From Bacteroidales bacterium (GTDB taxonomy: Bacteria; Bacteroidota; Bacteroidia; Bacteroidales; P3), in assembly GCA_017522105.1 (NCBI GenBank), contig JAFXAA010000031.1, forward strand, positions 1-64,000: DNA of 64,000 nt, read 5' to 3'. The position numbers were made by a program, and so were the translations under genes. The notes under the pieces were generated by a model that saw only the letters and a list, made by a program, of their open reading frames with translations, did no database searches and was not told where the DNA came from. Of this stretch, positions 48,071 to 63,914 are shown in pieces. The first letter of the stretch is position 1, and the number at the start of each line of letters is the position of its first letter.

Positions 48071-48117
48071 CACGGGAGTGATGGCAGCAGCATGGCTGCC
48101 GAAGCGGAAAACGAAAC

Positions 48118-48144
48118 AAAAAGTGCGCCGAATGGCACTTTTTT
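48118..48144. terminator. Bidirectional terminator-like hairpin upstream of the DPP7 promoter
   Basis: AAAAAGTGC (48118-48126) pairs with GCACTTTTT (48135-48143) around an 8-base loop, giving A- and T-runs on both sides. It lies directly before the -33 element of the DPP7 gene. Confidence 0.5.
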
Positions 48145-48145
48145 C

Positions 48146-48176
48146 TTTGCCACATTGAGAAAAAGTCGTATCTTTG
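48146..48176 (+). promoter_or_regulatory. Promoter of the DPP7-rpoN unit
   Basis: TTTG at 48146-48149 and TATCTTTG at 48169-48176 are 19 bp apart, a near-perfect Bacteroidota promoter. The ATG follows at 48224. Confidence 0.85.
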
Positions 48177-48223
48177 CATTTTGTAAATACACGGGCAAAA
48201 CAACAATAAATAAAAATAATACA

Positions 48224-50383
48224 ATGAAAATTCGCACTTTAATCGTAACAATGGCCCTTGCGCTGATGCTGCCCACGGCAGCCCGCGCCGACGAGGGCAT
48301 GTGGCTTCTGTCACTAATCGGAAAGAACTACAGCGACATGCAGAAGGCTGGCTTCAAGCTGACGCCCGAGGACATCTACAGCGTCAACCAGAGCTGCCTG
48401 AAGGATGCCATCGTGGGCCTCGGCCGCGAGGGGCGTCCCTTCAGCCACTTCTGCACGGGCGAGATCATCAGCAAGCAGGGCCTGGTGAGCACCAACCACC
48501 ACTGCGGCTACGGCTACCTGCAGAGCCACTCCACCGTGGAGCACGACTACCTGCGCGACGGCTTCTGGGCCTACACCCTGGACCAGGAGCTGCCCAACCC
48601 GGGCCTCACGGCCTCGGTGCTGGTGCGCATGGAGGATGTCACCGACAAGGTGAAGGAAGCCCTGAGCGACGACATGAGCGAGGGCGACCGCGAGGCGGCC
48701 ATCAACAAGGTGTGTGACGAGATTGCCGACGCCGCACGCGAGGGCAAGGGCATCGACGCCAAGGTGATACCGATGTTCAACGGCAACCAGTTCTTCCTCT
48801 TCGTGCACAAAATCTACAAGGACGTGCGCCTCGTGGGCGCTCCCCCATCGTCGATGGGCAAGTTCGGCGGCGACACCGACAACTGGTCGTGGCCCCGTCA
48901 CACCTGCGACTTCAGCATGTTCCGCATCTACACCGACAAGGATGGCAACCCCGCCCCCTACAGCAAGGAGAACATACCCCTGCAGCCTAAGCACCACCTG
49001 CCCGTGAGCGCAGGCGAGCTGAAAGACGGCGACTTCGCCATGGTCATGGGCTTCCCCGGCACCACCGACCACTTCCTCACCAGCTACGGTCTGGAGGAGA
49101 CGATGAACATCACCAACAAGCTGCGCTACGAGATACGCACCGTGAAGATCAACATCCTGCGCGAGGAGATGGCCGCCAGCCAGCAGACGCGCATCAAATA
49201 CGCTTCGAAGTACGCCAGCTGCTCCAACTACTGGAAGTACAGCAACGAGCAGAACAAGGCTCTGAAGGCCCTGAACACCATGGGGCTGAAGAAAGAGGTG
49301 GAGAAGGAGTACAGCGAGTGGGCACGCAGCCACGCCCCCAAATACGGCCGCGCCCTTGGCCTCATAGAGAAAGGCTACGCCGACCGCGCCAAGGTGGAGG
49401 AAGCCAACCAGTATGTGCTGGAAGGCCTGCTGACGGGCCCCGAGGCCCCGATGATGGCAGCACGCCTGGGTTCCAGCTTCATGAAAGACCTTGAGAAAGA
49501 CAAGAACGCCGACCTGGGCCGCTACGAGAACTATGTGGCGGGCTTCTTCAAGGACTATGACGAACAGGTGGACCGCCGCCTGACGGCAGCCCTCTTCGGC
49601 TATGTCTACGCCCACATCAATCCCGAAATCTGCCCCGAGTTCCTCAAGACCGCCCAAAAGAAATACAAGGGCGACTGGGAGAAGTACACCAACGACCTCT
49701 ACGGCAAGAGTATCTTCGCCAACGAGGAGACCGTGGGACGCTTCATGAACAAGCCCAACCTCAAGCAGCTGCAGAAAGACCCCCTGTTTGCCGCCGGCAA
49801 GGAGGCCCTGGAGCTCTACTTCAGCCTTGACGACCAAGTGTCGCAGGAGAGCAAGGACGGCCTGCAGCGCGGCATACGCGACTTCACCGACGGTGTGCTG
49901 CAGATGAACGAGGGCAAGAAGCTCATGTCGCCCGACGCCAACAGCACCATACGCCTCACCTACGGCAACGTGATGAGCTACGAGCCCAAGGACGGCGTCA
50001 CCTACCACCACTACACCACCATGAAGGGCGTCATAGAGAAGGAAGACCCGACGAGCAGCGAGTTCGCCGTGCCGGAGCGTCTGAAGAAGCTCTACAATGC
50101 CAAGGAGTTCGGCCCCTACACCAACAAGAAGGGCGAGATGCCCACATGCTTCATCACCAACAACGACATCACCGGCGGCAACAGCGGCTCGCCCGTCATC
50201 AACGCCAATGGCGTGCTGATAGGCCTGGCCTTCGACGGCAACAGCGAGGCCATGAGCGGCGACATCGACTTCGAGGAGAACCTGCAGCGCTGCATCTGCC
50301 TCGACAGCCGCTACATGCTCTGGGTCATCGACGTCTATGCCGGCGCCAAGAACCTCATCGAGGAGATGGACATCGTCAGATAA
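48224..50383 (+). CDS. S46 family dipeptidyl peptidase, DPP7-like
   Basis: The 719-residue periplasmic serine exopeptidase removes N-terminal dipeptides for peptide nutrition. It has a signal peptide (MKIRTLIVTMALALMLPTAA, ending ARA), mature N-terminus DEGMWLL, catalytic-His region STNHHCGYG (about residues 89-97) and nucleophile Ser in TGGNSGSPV (about 654). The specificity position in LAFDGNSEAMSGDI is Gly, as in DPP7 (hydrophobic P1), not Arg as in DPP11 (acidic P1). Ser replaces the usual Trp two residues on. ATG 48224 is chosen for the signal peptide and promoter. The next gene, rpoN, begins 7 bp later. Confidence 0.93.
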   Translation: MKIRTLIVTMALALMLPTAARADEGMWLLSLIGKNYSDMQKAGFKLTPEDIYSVNQSCLKDAIVGLGREGRPFSHFCTGEIISKQGLVSTNHHCGYGYLQSHSTVEHDYLRDGFWAYTLDQELPNPGLTASVLVRMEDVTDKVKEALSDDMSEGDREAAINKVCDEIADAAREGKGIDAKVIPMFNGNQFFLFVHKIYKDVRLVGAPPSSMGKFGGDTDNWSWPRHTCDFSMFRIYTDKDGNPAPYSKENIPLQPKHHLPVSAGELKDGDFAMVMGFPGTTDHFLTSYGLEETMNITNKLRYEIRTVKINILREEMAASQQTRIKYASKYASCSNYWKYSNEQNKALKALNTMGLKKEVEKEYSEWARSHAPKYGRALGLIEKGYADRAKVEEANQYVLEGLLTGPEAPMMAARLGSSFMKDLEKDKNADLGRYENYVAGFFKDYDEQVDRRLTAALFGYVYAHINPEICPEFLKTAQKKYKGDWEKYTNDLYGKSIFANEETVGRFMNKPNLKQLQKDPLFAAGKEALELYFSLDDQVSQESKDGLQRGIRDFTDGVLQMNEGKKLMSPDANSTIRLTYGNVMSYEPKDGVTYHHYTTMKGVIEKEDPTSSEFAVPERLKKLYNAKEFGPYTNKKGEMPTCFITNNDITGGNSGSPVINANGVLIGLAFDGNSEAMSGDIDFEENLQRCICLDSRYMLWVIDVYAGAKNLIEEMDIVR

Positions 50384-50390
50384 AGAAGGC

Positions 50391-52679
50391 ATGAAACAAA
50401 TCCAGCGACAGCAACTGCAGCAGAAACTATCGCCTCAGCAGATACAGCTGATGCGGCTGCTGCAGTTGCCTGTCACCGAGCTGGAGCAGGCCATCAAGGA
50501 GGAGGTGGAGAAAAACCCCCTGCTGGAGGCCGAAGTGCAAGACGAGACGCCCCTGCCACAGTCCGACAACCGCTCGGATTGGGACAGCGACGAGGACGAG
50601 GACTACGAGTACGACTACCACGAACATCAGGAAGGCGACCCCAACGAAACGCGCCGCGAGTTCGTGGTGAGCGACAGCCAGACGGCATCGGAGCGCCTCA
50701 TGCAGCAGCTCTCATTGCGCCACATGACCGAACGCCAGGAGAAGATAGCCACCGAGCTGGTGGGCACCCTCGACGATGCCGGCTACCTGGGGCGCGACCT
50801 GGCACTAATCACCAACGACCTGGCATTCCGCCAAGGCATAGACGCCACGCAGGAAGAAGTGGAGGAGGTGCTGCACATCATACAGAGCCTCGACCCCGCA
50901 GGCATAGGAGCCCGCAGCCTGCAGGAATGCCTGTTGCTGCAGATGGAACGCCAGCATCCGGCAGACAGCACGCGGCAGACGGCCATAGCCGTGCTGCGCG
51001 ACCACTTCGACGACTTCGCCAACCACCGCTACGAACACATCTGCCAAGCCCTCGGCATAGGCAACGACGAGATGGAGGCCGCCGCCAACGCCATCCGGAA
51101 CCTCAACCCCAAGCCCCTGGGTTCGGACAGCGAGGACAACGACACCGCGGCCTACGTCATACCAGACATAGTGCTCACACAGCACGAAGGACAACTCAGC
51201 TTCTACGTCAACGACAGCTACCTGCCACGGCTGAGCCTCAACACCTACTACACCGACATGCTTGCCGCCATGGAGAAGAACGGCGGCGACCGCGAGACGG
51301 TGCGCTTCCTGCGCTCCAAACAAGGCGACGCGCAAGGCTTCATAGACATGCTGCAACAACGCCACGACACCATCGTACGTGTGATGCACTATATTGTGAA
51401 GCACCAACGCCGCTTCCTGCTCAGCGGCAACCCCGACCTGCTGGTGCCCATGCGCCAGCGCGAAGTGGCCGAAGCCACCGGACTCGACATCAGCACGGTG
51501 AGCCGCATGGCCAACAGCAAGTACCTGCAGACAGACTTTGGCACCATCCCCCTCAAGGAATGCTTCTCGAAAGGCATGTCCACAGACGGTGGCGAAGAGG
51601 TGGCCGTTGAGACAATAAAGCAATACCTCTCCGACACCATTGCCGCCGAGGACAAGCACGCACCGCTGTCCGACGATGCCATCACCAAGCTCTTCAACGA
51701 GAAAGGCCTGCCCATAGCCCGCCGCACGGTGGCCAAATACCGCGAACAGCTGGGCATACCGGTGGCGCGCCTGCGCCGCACGCTGGTGCTGCTGCTGGCA
51801 ATGCTGGCGTCCTATGGCGCACAAGGTCAGATGTCATACTATGACAGCATCATAGCCGCCCGCATGGAGAAGGCCGCCCGCATCGAAAGCGCCGTCAAGC
51901 CGCTACCGGCACCGAAAGCCGCCAAAGCTGCAGCGGCCAAGGCTGCACCGCAACCAAAAGCGGCGCCGCAGCGCCAACACGCAGAAAGCTCCGCCACCGA
52001 GACACCCTCACTGACGCCCATCGAGGCCTTCATGGTGCCGATGTGGTACGACGGTTTTCCGCGCAACCGCGTAAACCCGCACGGCAAGACAATGGTCAGC
52101 ATGCTGCCCGACGAGATTAACCTGGTGCTGATAAAAGACACCGCAGACTTCTGCTTCCCCGTGAAGAACACGAAGACCAGCCCCTACGGATGGCGCTGGC
52201 GCCGCGGGCACCACGGCGTGGACATACGTCTGCGCACCGGCGACCCCATACACGCGGCCTTCGGCGGCACGGTGCGTGTGGCATCGCGCATGGGCGGTTA
52301 TGGCAACTGCGTGGTGCTGCGCCACCCCAACGGACTTGAGACGCTCTACGGACACCTCTCAAAAATCAACGTCAAACACGGCCAGCAGGTGGCCGCTGGC
52401 GACGTGATAGGCCTCGGCGGCAGCACCGGCAACAGCACCGGCCCGCACCTGCACTTCGAGTGCCGCTTCCTCTACCAGACTTTCGACCCAGAATGGATAC
52501 TGGACTTCAGCAACTATTCCCTGCGCACGCGACGCCTGCACCTCGACAAAAGCTACTTCGGCATCCGCCAGCCCCGCAAGGGCGAGGAGCTGCAATACAA
52601 GGCCGACAACAGCATCATACGCGAGAGCAAGAAGAACCGCAAGGCACAGGCAACAACCATCAACCCAAAAGACTTTTAA
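50391..52679 (+). CDS. rpoN: Sigma-54 factor fused in frame to a secreted-type M23 metallopeptidase
   Basis: This single 762-residue frame first encodes a complete sigma-54: Gln/Leu-rich region I (QQLQQKLSPQQIQLMRLLQL), an acidic region II (about residues 55-85), the core-binding domain, the helix-turn-helix region and the RpoN box ARRTVAKYRE at about 443-452. Sigma-54 normally stops soon after. Here IPVARLRR is followed without a stop by TLVLLLAMLASYGAQGQ (464-480), which reads as a signal peptide or membrane helix. Then come an Ala/Lys/Pro linker and an M23 (LytM) domain with zinc residues H607 and D611 (HHGVD) and H686-L-H688. An in-frame GTG at 51762 would give a normal secreted M23 preprotein (n-region VARLRR), so nested initiation is possible. 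The neighbours are DPP7 upstream and ribH 2 bp downstream. Confidence 0.88.
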   Translation: MKQIQRQQLQQKLSPQQIQLMRLLQLPVTELEQAIKEEVEKNPLLEAEVQDETPLPQSDNRSDWDSDEDEDYEYDYHEHQEGDPNETRREFVVSDSQTASERLMQQLSLRHMTERQEKIATELVGTLDDAGYLGRDLALITNDLAFRQGIDATQEEVEEVLHIIQSLDPAGIGARSLQECLLLQMERQHPADSTRQTAIAVLRDHFDDFANHRYEHICQALGIGNDEMEAAANAIRNLNPKPLGSDSEDNDTAAYVIPDIVLTQHEGQLSFYVNDSYLPRLSLNTYYTDMLAAMEKNGGDRETVRFLRSKQGDAQGFIDMLQQRHDTIVRVMHYIVKHQRRFLLSGNPDLLVPMRQREVAEATGLDISTVSRMANSKYLQTDFGTIPLKECFSKGMSTDGGEEVAVETIKQYLSDTIAAEDKHAPLSDDAITKLFNEKGLPIARRTVAKYREQLGIPVARLRRTLVLLLAMLASYGAQGQMSYYDSIIAARMEKAARIESAVKPLPAPKAAKAAAAKAAPQPKAAPQRQHAESSATETPSLTPIEAFMVPMWYDGFPRNRVNPHGKTMVSMLPDEINLVLIKDTADFCFPVKNTKTSPYGWRWRRGHHGVDIRLRTGDPIHAAFGGTVRVASRMGGYGNCVVLRHPNGLETLYGHLSKINVKHGQQVAAGDVIGLGGSTGNSTGPHLHFECRFLYQTFDPEWILDFSNYSLRTRRLHLDKSYFGIRQPRKGEELQYKADNSIIRESKKNRKAQATTINPKDF

Positions 52680-52681
52680 GC

Positions 52682-53179
52682 ATGACCGAGAAGAAAACCA
52701 ATCTCTCAGACTACAACCGCGACGCCGTGCCCGACGGCAGCAAATACCGCATAGGCGTCATAGCCGCCGAATGGAACCCCACTGTGACCGACGCCATGCT
52801 CAATGGCGCCGTGGAGACCCTCGCGGCCAACGGAGTGAAAGAGGAAAACATCATGGTGAAACGCGTGCCGGGCACCTTCGAGCTCAGCTCGGCAGCCGAC
52901 ATGATGCTGCGCCACTGCCTCCTTGACGCCGTGATATGCATAGGCTGCGTCATACAGGGCGAGACACGGCACTTTGAGTTCATCTGCCAGGCAGTGTCGC
53001 AGGGGCTCACCAACGTGGCTGTCAAACACGAGCGCCCAGTCATTTTCAGCGTCCTCACCACCGACACCATGCAGCAGGCCCTCGACCGCGCAGGCGGCAA
53101 ACACGGCAACAAAGGCGTAGAAGGCGCCGTGACCGCACTGAAGATGTGCGCCTACAGAGAGTCGCTAAACAATAACTAA
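52682..53179 (+). CDS. ribH: 6,7-dimethyl-8-ribityllumazine synthase
   Basis: Penultimate enzyme of riboflavin synthesis; condenses the ribitylamino-pyrimidine with dihydroxybutanone phosphate. The 165-residue protein has the family landmarks GVIAAEWNPTVTDAML, VPGTFELSSAADMML, VICIGCVIQGETRHFEFIC (His of the active site) and GLTNVAVKHERPVIFSVLTTDT (read 53008-53070). ATG 52682 lies 2 bp after the sigma-54/M23 stop. Confidence 0.96.
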   Translation: MTEKKTNLSDYNRDAVPDGSKYRIGVIAAEWNPTVTDAMLNGAVETLAANGVKEENIMVKRVPGTFELSSAADMMLRHCLLDAVICIGCVIQGETRHFEFICQAVSQGLTNVAVKHERPVIFSVLTTDTMQQALDRAGGKHGNKGVEGAVTALKMCAYRESLNNN

Positions 53180-61628: not shown

Positions 61629-63914
61629 ATGAAAAAAGCATTATTAAGTCTATTTTTGGCTTTCACTTGCATGCCTGTATTCGCACAGACTAAATCTGTC
61701 GTCGTAGAGCACATCAACCTTGTACGGTGCACCCCTTTCTTCTGGAGCATCACAGATAGCACCTACAGCGAGAGTACAGTTGTAACCGTGACACGACCAG
61801 ACACAGTATATGTCTTAGACCTCACCATTGACCCCGATGGAATCATAAGAGACACCGTAAATGTGACTGCCAACTGCACCTATATCTGGCGAGACAGCCT
61901 GACATTCCACACCTCCGGTCTTGATTCTGCCAGAGTTCTTGCCACCAGCGGATGTGACAGCATTCACTACTTCAACCTGACCATAAATGGAGACTTTGAT
62001 ACGTTAATGCTTGACACCACAGTGTGTGGCTACTATATGGCACCTTGGGGAGAAAGACTTACCCATGACACAATAATTGATACCAACTATACCACCGAAG
62101 CTGGATGCCAGCGCCGCGACAGTCTTATTCTCAAAGTAAACCCCACCTACAACATGCCACCCGTCATCAAAGAGGCTGATTGTAGTTATACATGGCGTGC
62201 GGCCAACGATCTCGTCATCACCGACACCATGATACACTCGTTCAAGACCAGAGGCACCAATGCCGGATGCGACAGCATAATAAACATCAAAGTCAATATG
62301 TCTTTCCACATAGATACAACTTATGACACTGTAGTATGCGACAAATATATTGCCCCATGGGATAACATCTACACAGCTACTGGCACACATGTGCATCGCG
62401 ACACATCGGCCACTGGCTGTATCACCACGACCACCGTAGAGCTCACTGTCAACAACAGCTTTACCGACACCGCATGGGCACTTAACAATACTATTGACAC
62501 CACCATTGGCTGCTACCTTACGTGGGGCGACACAACCATAAAAAACATTACCGCCGACACCGTGCTGCGCAGACTCAGCAATGTCGCTGTCAACGGCTGC
62601 GACAGCGTGGCCGCAGTGCATGTAATAGCCCTTTCTCACATGGAAGATGTAGATACCACTGTCACTCCATGTTTCCACCCATATAGGTGGCATCCCTACA
62701 CCGGCAAAGTACACTCCCTTAGTAATAGCGGCGTTTATCGTGACACAAACATAACAGGTACCGGGGAAAACACATGTACAACCCATTATACACTCAACCT
62801 CAACTTCGGTGATTCCATCAGCAACAAGTATGCCAAACGTAAACTCCGCTGCGAGTTTGACAGCCTAAAGATTGGCACGCCGCGCTACTCGTTCCGCATT
62901 GAAAACGGCGATACCGTTGTACGCAAATATGCCAATAACAATATGACAATTGTAGACATAGATAGTATTTTCACATACAACTCATCCAAAAAGTGTACCA
63001 CATACTTCAAGATAGGCCTAAACATAATGCAACCCATAGACACAACCAGGACCAACACCAAAGTTGCCTGCGACAAATATCAGGATCTGACATTTAACCA
63101 TGTATTTACAAAAAGTATAGACACTTCCATTGTTCACAAAGGAAGACCCGATATCAATTCATATAGTGACCTTAATGTGGATATTCCTCATGAGGCAGCA
63201 GCATGCTACAACAGAATATATACGCTAAACCTTACAATAAACAACAGCGATACTTTGAGAAGGGCGAGTGACACTGTGACGAGCTGCGATAAATATGTGT
63301 GGCCATTCAATGACTCAACATATATAAGAACAACTAACATTTATCGCAAAACAAAAGACACAACTATTCATGGATGTGCAGTATATTGCAACCTGAACCT
63401 GACTATCAACAACACCCCGTTATCATATATTACGGGCGATTGGATGCTTGCTCCCGACGGCAGTACAACCCTGCATGCTGTGAGCCAGGACAACAACCTC
63501 ACCTACGCATGGTACGAGAACGGCACCTATGCAGCTGATGGCGATACCTATGAGGTGACCGACCGCAACAACCACGAGAATATTGACATCCTTCTCACCG
63601 CCAGCAACGGCAACGGCTGCCCCGACAGCAACTGGCTGACCATCGTCTTCGCCCCCATTGGCATCGACGACGTTGATGGTGTTGACGTGAGCATCTTCCC
63701 CAACCCCGCCACGCGTTTTGTCAACCTGCGCACCTCCGAGGCCATCAGCACCGTTAGCGTGTTCAACGCCATCGGCCAGCAGGTGATGTTGCGCCAGGGC
63801 GACGGCGAGGACATGCAGATAGACCTCACCGGCCTTGCCAGCGGACACTACACCATGCGCATCCGCACCATTGAAGGCCATGAAGCAATCCGCAAATTTA
63901 TCGTCAACAAATAA
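61629..63914 (+). CDS. Large secreted repeat protein with T9SS type A sorting domain
   Basis: The 761-residue protein has a signal peptide (MKKALLSLFLAFTCMPVFAQ), then about seven degenerate modules of 60-90 residues. They recur as a Cys plus 'Y.W' start and a 'GCDSI..L.LTIN' end (for example SGCDSIHYFNLTING, NAGCDSIINIKVNM, VNGCDSVAAVHV). An Ig-like/PKD-like module follows (TGDWMLAPDGSTTLHAVS), then the type A C-terminal sorting domain (about 680-761): VSIFPNPATRFVNL, VSVFNAIGQQVM, DLTGLASGHYTMRI, AIRKFIVNK. It should be exported by the type IX system and attached to or released from the surface. The modules are AT-rich (visibly lower GC than the window), while the last about 460 bp are GC-rich like the core genome. 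Confidence 0.87.
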   Translation: MKKALLSLFLAFTCMPVFAQTKSVVVEHINLVRCTPFFWSITDSTYSESTVVTVTRPDTVYVLDLTIDPDGIIRDTVNVTANCTYIWRDSLTFHTSGLDSARVLATSGCDSIHYFNLTINGDFDTLMLDTTVCGYYMAPWGERLTHDTIIDTNYTTEAGCQRRDSLILKVNPTYNMPPVIKEADCSYTWRAANDLVITDTMIHSFKTRGTNAGCDSIINIKVNMSFHIDTTYDTVVCDKYIAPWDNIYTATGTHVHRDTSATGCITTTTVELTVNNSFTDTAWALNNTIDTTIGCYLTWGDTTIKNITADTVLRRLSNVAVNGCDSVAAVHVIALSHMEDVDTTVTPCFHPYRWHPYTGKVHSLSNSGVYRDTNITGTGENTCTTHYTLNLNFGDSISNKYAKRKLRCEFDSLKIGTPRYSFRIENGDTVVRKYANNNMTIVDIDSIFTYNSSKKCTTYFKIGLNIMQPIDTTRTNTKVACDKYQDLTFNHVFTKSIDTSIVHKGRPDINSYSDLNVDIPHEAAACYNRIYTLNLTINNSDTLRRASDTVTSCDKYVWPFNDSTYIRTTNIYRKTKDTTIHGCAVYCNLNLTINNTPLSYITGDWMLAPDGSTTLHAVSQDNNLTYAWYENGTYAADGDTYEVTDRNNHENIDILLTASNGNGCPDSNWLTIVFAPIGIDDVDGVDVSIFPNPATRFVNLRTSEAISTVSVFNAIGQQVMLRQGDGEDMQIDLTGLASGHYTMRIRTIEGHEAIRKFIVNK

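Follow-up and report, generated by a model that had tools for sequence, protein, structure and literature searches.

A sigma-54 gene joined in frame to a signal-peptide-like segment and an M23 peptidase in Bacteroidales

Sigma factors are expected to be soluble proteins. In transcription factors of the membrane-bound ToxR/CadC type, a DNA-binding part on the inside is joined through one membrane segment to an outside domain, but these are not sigma factors, carry no peptidase, and their segment is not cleaved as a signal peptide. Here we consider a gene that may bring a comparable arrangement into the sigma-54 family: the rpoN::M23 fusion at 50391-52679 of a 64,000-nucleotide stretch of DNA from a Bacteroidales bacterium (assembly GCA_017522105.1, contig JAFXAA010000031.1, positions 1 to 64,000 of the forward strand; the whole stretch is called the window below). 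Among sigma factors, Bacillus subtilis pro-sigma-K is described as a pro-protein that is cut by the site-2 protease SpoIVFB, and it shares with what we propose for the fusion the freeing of a sigma factor by proteolysis. Unlike the fusion, pro-sigma-K has an N-terminal pro-sequence, belongs to the sigma-70 family and involves neither an exported enzyme nor a signal peptidase step.

The signal recognition particle (SRP) delivers Escherichia coli sigma-32 to the membrane, which may be compared with the SRP/Sec route proposed here, and when 99% of this sigma factor was inserted into the membrane through an added tag it supported growth and was still degraded and inhibited, and so stayed functional and controlled while artificially tethered (relevant passages of PMC3866087). 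A heat-shock sigma factor can thus work while tethered, although sigma-32 is a sigma-70 family member with no natural fused signal peptide or enzyme, and the engineered tag was N-terminal. The ECF52 sigma factors of actinobacteria, for instance SCO4117, also combine a sigma domain, a transmembrane region and an extra C-terminal domain in one protein; they differ in belonging to the ECF family and in having a zinc finger and a carbohydrate-binding domain, and the passages that concern them name no peptidase or cleavable signal peptide (PMC5826349). For Bacteroidota, sigma-54 promoters have been predicted at the GroES/GroEL, DnaK, DnaJ, GrpE and HSP90 genes, and the relevant passages of that paper make no mention of a fused or membrane-bound sigma-54 (PMC12316311). 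The first-pass annotation of the window knew of no described sigma-54/M23 fusion, and among open-licence papers we likewise found no fitting report of such a fusion or of a membrane-tethered sigma-54.

The fusion frame and its conservation

The frame opens with an ATG at 50391, closes with a TAA at 52677-52679 and has zero internal stops. Its main parts are the following.

50391..52679, + strand: rpoN::M23 fusion gene, 762 residues plus stop (uninterrupted frame, Pfam)
50391..51779, + strand: sigma-54 part, residues 1-463, with activator-interacting, core-binding and DNA-binding domains (Pfam, TIGR02395, aligned solved sigma-54)
51717..51746, + strand: RpoN box ARRTVAKYRE, residues 443-452, conserved across fusions
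51831..52205, + strand: linker, with MSYYDS at its start, a variable Ala/Lys/Pro-rich part and a conserved part ahead of the peptidase (alignment)
52206..52490, + strand: Peptidase_M23 domain, residues 606-700 (Pfam)

All Pfam matches lie above their cut-offs (Sigma54_AID 2-46, Sigma54_CBD 92-287, Sigma54_DBD 306-463, Peptidase_M23 606-700), and the NCBI model TIGR02395 (rpoN_sigma) is covered over its full profile (1-434 of 434) with a score of 417.7 bits, where 277.35 is the cut-off. The three sigma-54 domains stand in the order of the family, the RpoN box is in place, and the genome holds -24/-12 promoters and an AAA+ activator. Where a sigma-54 should end just past the RpoN box, however, this protein runs about 300 residues further; chain M of PDB 9mse, a solved sigma-54, stops at the residue aligned to residue 466 of the window protein, at the onset of a hydrophobic core. 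The fusion protein is an RpoN variant rather than a standard member.

The first-pass annotation had suggested looking for the same fusion in relatives; 119 genus genomes were searched with the fusion protein, and 132 loci were tested for a single open frame. Both the sigma-54 and the M23 part are held by 126 of these (the other six lack one part), and 86 of the 126 keep the same uninterrupted frame, which exceeds chance; the remaining 40 are unfused. When the loci are mapped onto the 119 genomes, 84 genomes have the fusion, 31 have an unfused sigma-54 (in 29, a separate M23 also lies within the locus) and four have no sigma-54 match. The two fusions beyond the 84 belong to a further member of the genus (G124) and to a different genus of the same family (locus L131 of G180), where the search showed a match to residue 471 and a long frame. 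Full-length identity between fusions drops to about 46% inside the genus, and the junction is still recognisable by its RpoN box, YRE..G.P.ARLRR, hydrophobic core and A/G-Q. On this comparison we regard the fusion as real and old, shared by the majority of the species sampled in a large genus.

Both ends look functional. In the RpoN box, A443, R444, R445, T446, Y450 and R451 are invariant in 86/86 fusions, as are H607, D611, H655, H686 and H688 in the M23 part, so that the HxxxD and HxH zinc motifs of that family are found throughout; a start codon of its own, as an M23 enzyme would have, is not conserved, and the signal segment is internal to the fusion. Pfam detects a LysM domain at the C-terminus in L131 and L089 and none in the window protein (52491-52676). 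The single 762-codon frame joining a full sigma-54, a signal-like segment and M23 is thus as first described, and so are the positions given for the RpoN box (443-452), the hydrophobic segment (464-480) and H607, D611 and H688. The annotation had also entertained a lost stop codon, as an error or a recent mutation. The genome is indeed a draft of 38 contigs, but the frame is intact in 86 of 126 loci, drawn from different genomes, at identities as low as those given above and with a conserved junction; this explanation is excluded, and a sequencing or assembly error or very recent stop loss has next to no probability.

A tree was built from the sigma and M23 parts with the junction excluded, and it requires three state changes. 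A single origin for all 86 fusions was rejected (approximately unbiased (AU) test, p 2.7e-65), whereas one clade for the 85 genus fusions was not rejected (p 0.524). Because the constraint of one clade for all 86 is rejected, the fusion originated at least twice. The short L117 was left out of the trees, and L085 and L112, which have long branches, were left out of the state-change tree and of both one-clade tests.

Outside the family, searches of the order (393 genomes) and the class (395 genomes) showed no fusion among the matches listed, where a weak-scoring one could be missed. The long frames of 14 loci from other families (L221-L225, L339-L347) extend upstream only and reach a stop no more than 14-16 residues past the RpoN box region, and rpoN ends normally in L228-L231. 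Within the family but outside the genus, rpoN loci were classed for 14 of 70 genomes, and 12 of the 14 held both parts. A scan of contigs with the fusion protein returned at least 80 loci. Two of them, L133 and L134, match nearly the entire fusion and come from bins (RUG377, RUG11969) labelled as uncultured Bacteroidales or Bacteroidetes; in the other 78 the matched residues are confined to 465-762.

The unfused relatives suggest how such a gene could arise. Of the 39 unfused loci placed in the tree, 28 have less than 450 nucleotides between the rpoN stop and the M23 match (class S). In six loci (L098, L107, L108, L110, L112, L118) the M23 start overlaps the rpoN stop by 4 nucleotides, and in L085 (G141, another genus) the M23 start directly follows the rpoN stop in the same frame, which would place that locus one change short of fusion. 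In eight other-genus loci that were read, a protein of about 200 residues, multi-pass membrane by eye, is encoded between rpoN and M23, and such a gene also intervenes in two loci of this genus (L088, L093). Of the 28 unfused loci that the genus contributes to the tree, 26 have too little space for it (classes S and I), and the 4-nucleotide overlaps occur in some of these. Loci with the intervening gene are L088, L093, L120-L122, L124-L127 and L129, and it is absent where the two genes are fused. From these arrangements, fusion would be the next step after loss of spacing and 4-nucleotide overlap between rpoN and M23.

That route also lends itself to a neutral explanation, in which operon compaction simply joined two neighbours, and the protein is inserted, cut and trimmed so fast that sigma-54 ends in the soluble state and its attachment to M23 is of no consequence for regulation. 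The small gaps, the six overlaps and the in-frame adjacency in L085 are what such a history would leave behind, and relatives live without the fusion. It accounts poorly for a second, independent origin and for the lack of re-splitting among the 85 genus fusions, if these form one clade (p 0.524), and a membrane-fixed tail beside the RpoN box would hardly be without effect. We consider a neutral passenger possible, if rather unlikely.

The junction segment in the sole sigma-54 found

A Sigma54_DBD match is present in 115 of the 119 genus genomes. It is single in 114 of them; in G071 (C13:48541-48982) it falls into two adjoining pieces, the sigma-54 gene being split in a frameshift-like manner. 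In the fused genomes, which are drafts, no sigma-54 other than the fusion was found. Since there is no second rpoN among the matches and no stop precedes M23, every finished sigma-54 chain would carry the signal segment. In most sampled species of the genus, the sole sigma-54 found is accordingly inseparable, at synthesis, from a signal peptide and an exported enzyme. Four genomes (G003, G032, G037, G102) give no sigma-54 match yet have a strong activator gene, through either a lost gene or an assembly gap.

The segment itself consists of two parts.

51765..51779, + strand: ARLRR, residues 459-463, sigma-54 tail doubling as basic n-region; R462 in 86/86 fusions
51780..51830, + strand: hydrophobic core and signal-peptidase-like end (...AQG/Q, the slash marking the cut), residues 464-480 (script, AlphaFold model)

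In 86/86 fusions this is the top hydrophobic 12-mer of the entire protein. Its Kyte-Doolittle mean has a median of 2.73; the best competing stretch in the rest of the fusions has 1.53, and two signal peptides from the same genome reach 2.49 and 2.67. The hydrophobic run (median 14 residues, range 8-19) matches those of cleavable signal peptides, and an [AG]Q cleavage-type motif lies behind it in 85/86. The anatomy of a type I signal peptide is complete, with a basic n-region, a hydrophobic core and small residues ahead of the cut, as scored by a script of our own and not by a dedicated predictor.

At the end of sigma-54, 32 of 40 unfused genes encode R-[RK]-acidic, versus 1 of 86 fused ones. 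In the fusion this acidic residue would abut the edge of the hydrophobic core, so that selection for export would be expected to remove it. The basic end of sigma-54 has thus been remodelled into the n-region of a signal peptide, and the fusion shows how a signal-peptide start can be made from the end of a DNA-binding domain. In the AlphaFold model the recognition helix (444-454) and a separate helix (459-477, predicted local distance difference test (pLDDT) about 60-76) are parted by a four-residue break; block means of pLDDT over 451-480 are 76, 70 and 59.

A putative pro-sigma-54 polyprotein and its probable chaperone regulon

Our preferred reading, to which we assign a probability of roughly 0.6, is that the fusion is a pro-sigma-54 polyprotein, and it is from the sequences that we infer its topology, cleavage, tethering, release and regulation. 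The sigma-54 part would be translated first and would fold in the cytoplasm. Next, the ARLRR tail and the hydrophobic core would together serve as a cleavable signal peptide inside the chain, inserted N-in/C-out by SRP/Sec, and signal peptidase would cut at the A/G-Q site to free an active M23 peptidoglycan peptidase outside. Sigma-54 would retain a short membrane tail, about 10 residues behind its DNA-reading element, until proteolysis freed or degraded it, and might be active while tethered, after release, or just when insertion fails. This agrees best with the first of the readings offered by the first-pass annotation, a membrane-tethered sigma-54 with an outside peptidase; the coupling of cell-wall state to sigma-54 transcription that went with it finds no direct support, the predicted regulon being one of heat-shock chaperones.

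This regulon is suggested by promoter sequences. Six exact -24/-12 elements are found genome-wide, two of them outside any ATG-started frame of more than 100 residues; with one mismatch allowed there are 107, which only slightly exceeds the 83 found with the reversed pattern. The exact site ahead of htpG is preceded by a palindrome, CTGNCANWNTGNCAG, that has seven sites in the genome versus 0 for the reversed control. At four of the seven, a -24/-12 element follows 11-32 nucleotides on and then a gene start, the genes having been named by NCBIfam on their N-terminal parts; the remaining three are without a -24/-12 element.

Genome G000, C1:7174, C1:30664, C37:18552 and C37:51435 (L300, L301, L305, L306): palindrome CTGNCA-N3-TGNCAG with -24/-12 element, ahead of groES, clpB, htpG and dnaK

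The palindrome is probably a binding site of the sigma-54 activator. For htpG, 59 genus genomes were searched and 48 matched; in the best 30 of the 48, all from fused genomes, palindrome and promoter lie ahead of the gene in 27 (20 palindromes perfect, seven with one mismatch) versus 0 of 600 Markov shuffles. For dnaK, 108 of 119 order genomes matched and the best 30 of the 108 were read, less L333, which has 73 nucleotides upstream. In 26 of these 29, TGGYAY-N5-TTG occurs within 160 nucleotides upstream, while shuffled sequences have it in 2 of 1450 cases and the opposite strand in 0 of 29; palindrome and promoter together precede dnaK in just 3 of the 29. As the dnaK promoter is order-wide, the chaperone sigma-54 promoters predate the fusion. 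Heat-shock chaperones are probably under the control of the fused sigma-54. At 62863 of the window (minus strand), a one-mismatch palindrome with a -24/-12 element falls inside an opposite reading frame and was set aside as chance.

Among six matches to sigma-54 activators in the genome, one is strong (222 bits). It has an AAA+ domain from residue 12 and an HTH_8 domain, and a domain search found no receiver or GAF domain in it. Its gene lies at L233:4804-6033 (minus strand), flanked by dnaG-like and aroA-like genes (named by eye). Because the strong activator is without a sensor domain, control need not reside in the activator and may reside in sigma-54 itself. Given a chaperone regulon and a lone activator of this kind, tethering, release or failed insertion would offer a natural control point, as comparison with E. 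coli sigma-32 also suggests. If the topology is as proposed, the fusion would be a natural counterpart to the sigma-32 membrane-tethering experiment, and the membrane recruitment of heat-shock sigma factors would become testable in a second, unrelated sigma family; a probable heat-shock sigma factor may then begin life membrane-bound in many uncultured Bacteroidales.

One further possibility, which we think unlikely and put forward as speculation, is that the polyprotein serves as an export monitor. A working Sec/SRP system would hold or degrade new sigma-54 at the membrane; when heat or misfolding jams export, the fusion would stay in the cytoplasm with its RpoN box free and turn on GroES, ClpB, HtpG and DnaK, and the state of export would be read from the secreted peptidase as cargo. 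A similar logic is seen in transcription factors with an organelle import signal that become active upon import failure.

Several observations weigh against the pro-sigma-54 polyprotein. The genome has an M50-family site-2 protease, but this is no special evidence, as such a protease is present in all 14 control genomes too. The sigma-54-like dnaK promoter is order-wide and no fusion was listed there, which argues that tethering is unnecessary for the regulon. The best activator match is weak (E > 7e-9) in 10 of the 119 genomes, seven of which are fused (G040, G051, G074, G089, G097, G104, G110), and some genus genomes hold several strong matches, so that the picture of a lone activator is not universal. 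The AlphaFold model (23 sequences) has a mean pLDDT of 66.1 and a predicted template modelling score of 0.38; domain arrangement is not fixed in it and it includes neither membrane nor DNA. A tether this near the recognition helix could hinder DNA binding. Finally, codon usage at V458 has a GTG excess (48 of 67 valines against 51.6% expected; a naive P of 0.0007 that ignores kinship), which would be compatible with an internal start in some members of the clade. The genomes with weak activator matches are drafts, 64-92% complete, and the seven fused ones have either a draft gap or a sigma-54 without the usual activator.

The codon concerned is the one from which the first-pass annotation, in its second reading, derived two proteins from one frame.

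51762..51764, + strand: GTG (V458), proposed internal start; not conserved as start codon

An internal start here or nearby would add to the fusion a secreted M23 preprotein, and could do so in many species. The codon is as annotated, and at the equivalent position 48 of 86 fusions have GTG and two have ATG; the GTG share exceeds the gene average, at 0.82 in the window's clade, and unfused genes have no excess (9 of 30). The other 36 of the 86, though, have neither codon, and four (L027, L035, L074, L105) have no ATG, GTG or TTG that would leave a basic n-region ahead of the core. By GTG share, V458 ranks just 3rd of 23 conserved valine columns in the window's clade and 5th of 20 across all fusions. 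The missing start codons and this rank rule out an internal start at 51762 as a general rule, and such a start cannot yield free sigma-54 in any case. Dual output from the fusion is, in our estimate, doubtful.

Gene neighbourhood

Two genes lie close to the fusion in the window.

48092..50383, + strand: S46 peptidase gene, ending 7 nucleotides ahead of the fusion
52682..53179, + strand: ribH-like gene (lumazine synthase, named by eye), starting 2 nucleotides past the fusion

The S46 peptidase gene and the fusion probably share an operon. An S46 peptidase gene is found upstream of rpoN in 49 of 86 fused versus 0 of 40 unfused loci, some of which have little upstream sequence, and the ribH-like gene is present in 61 of the 86 fused and 37 of the 40 unfused loci.
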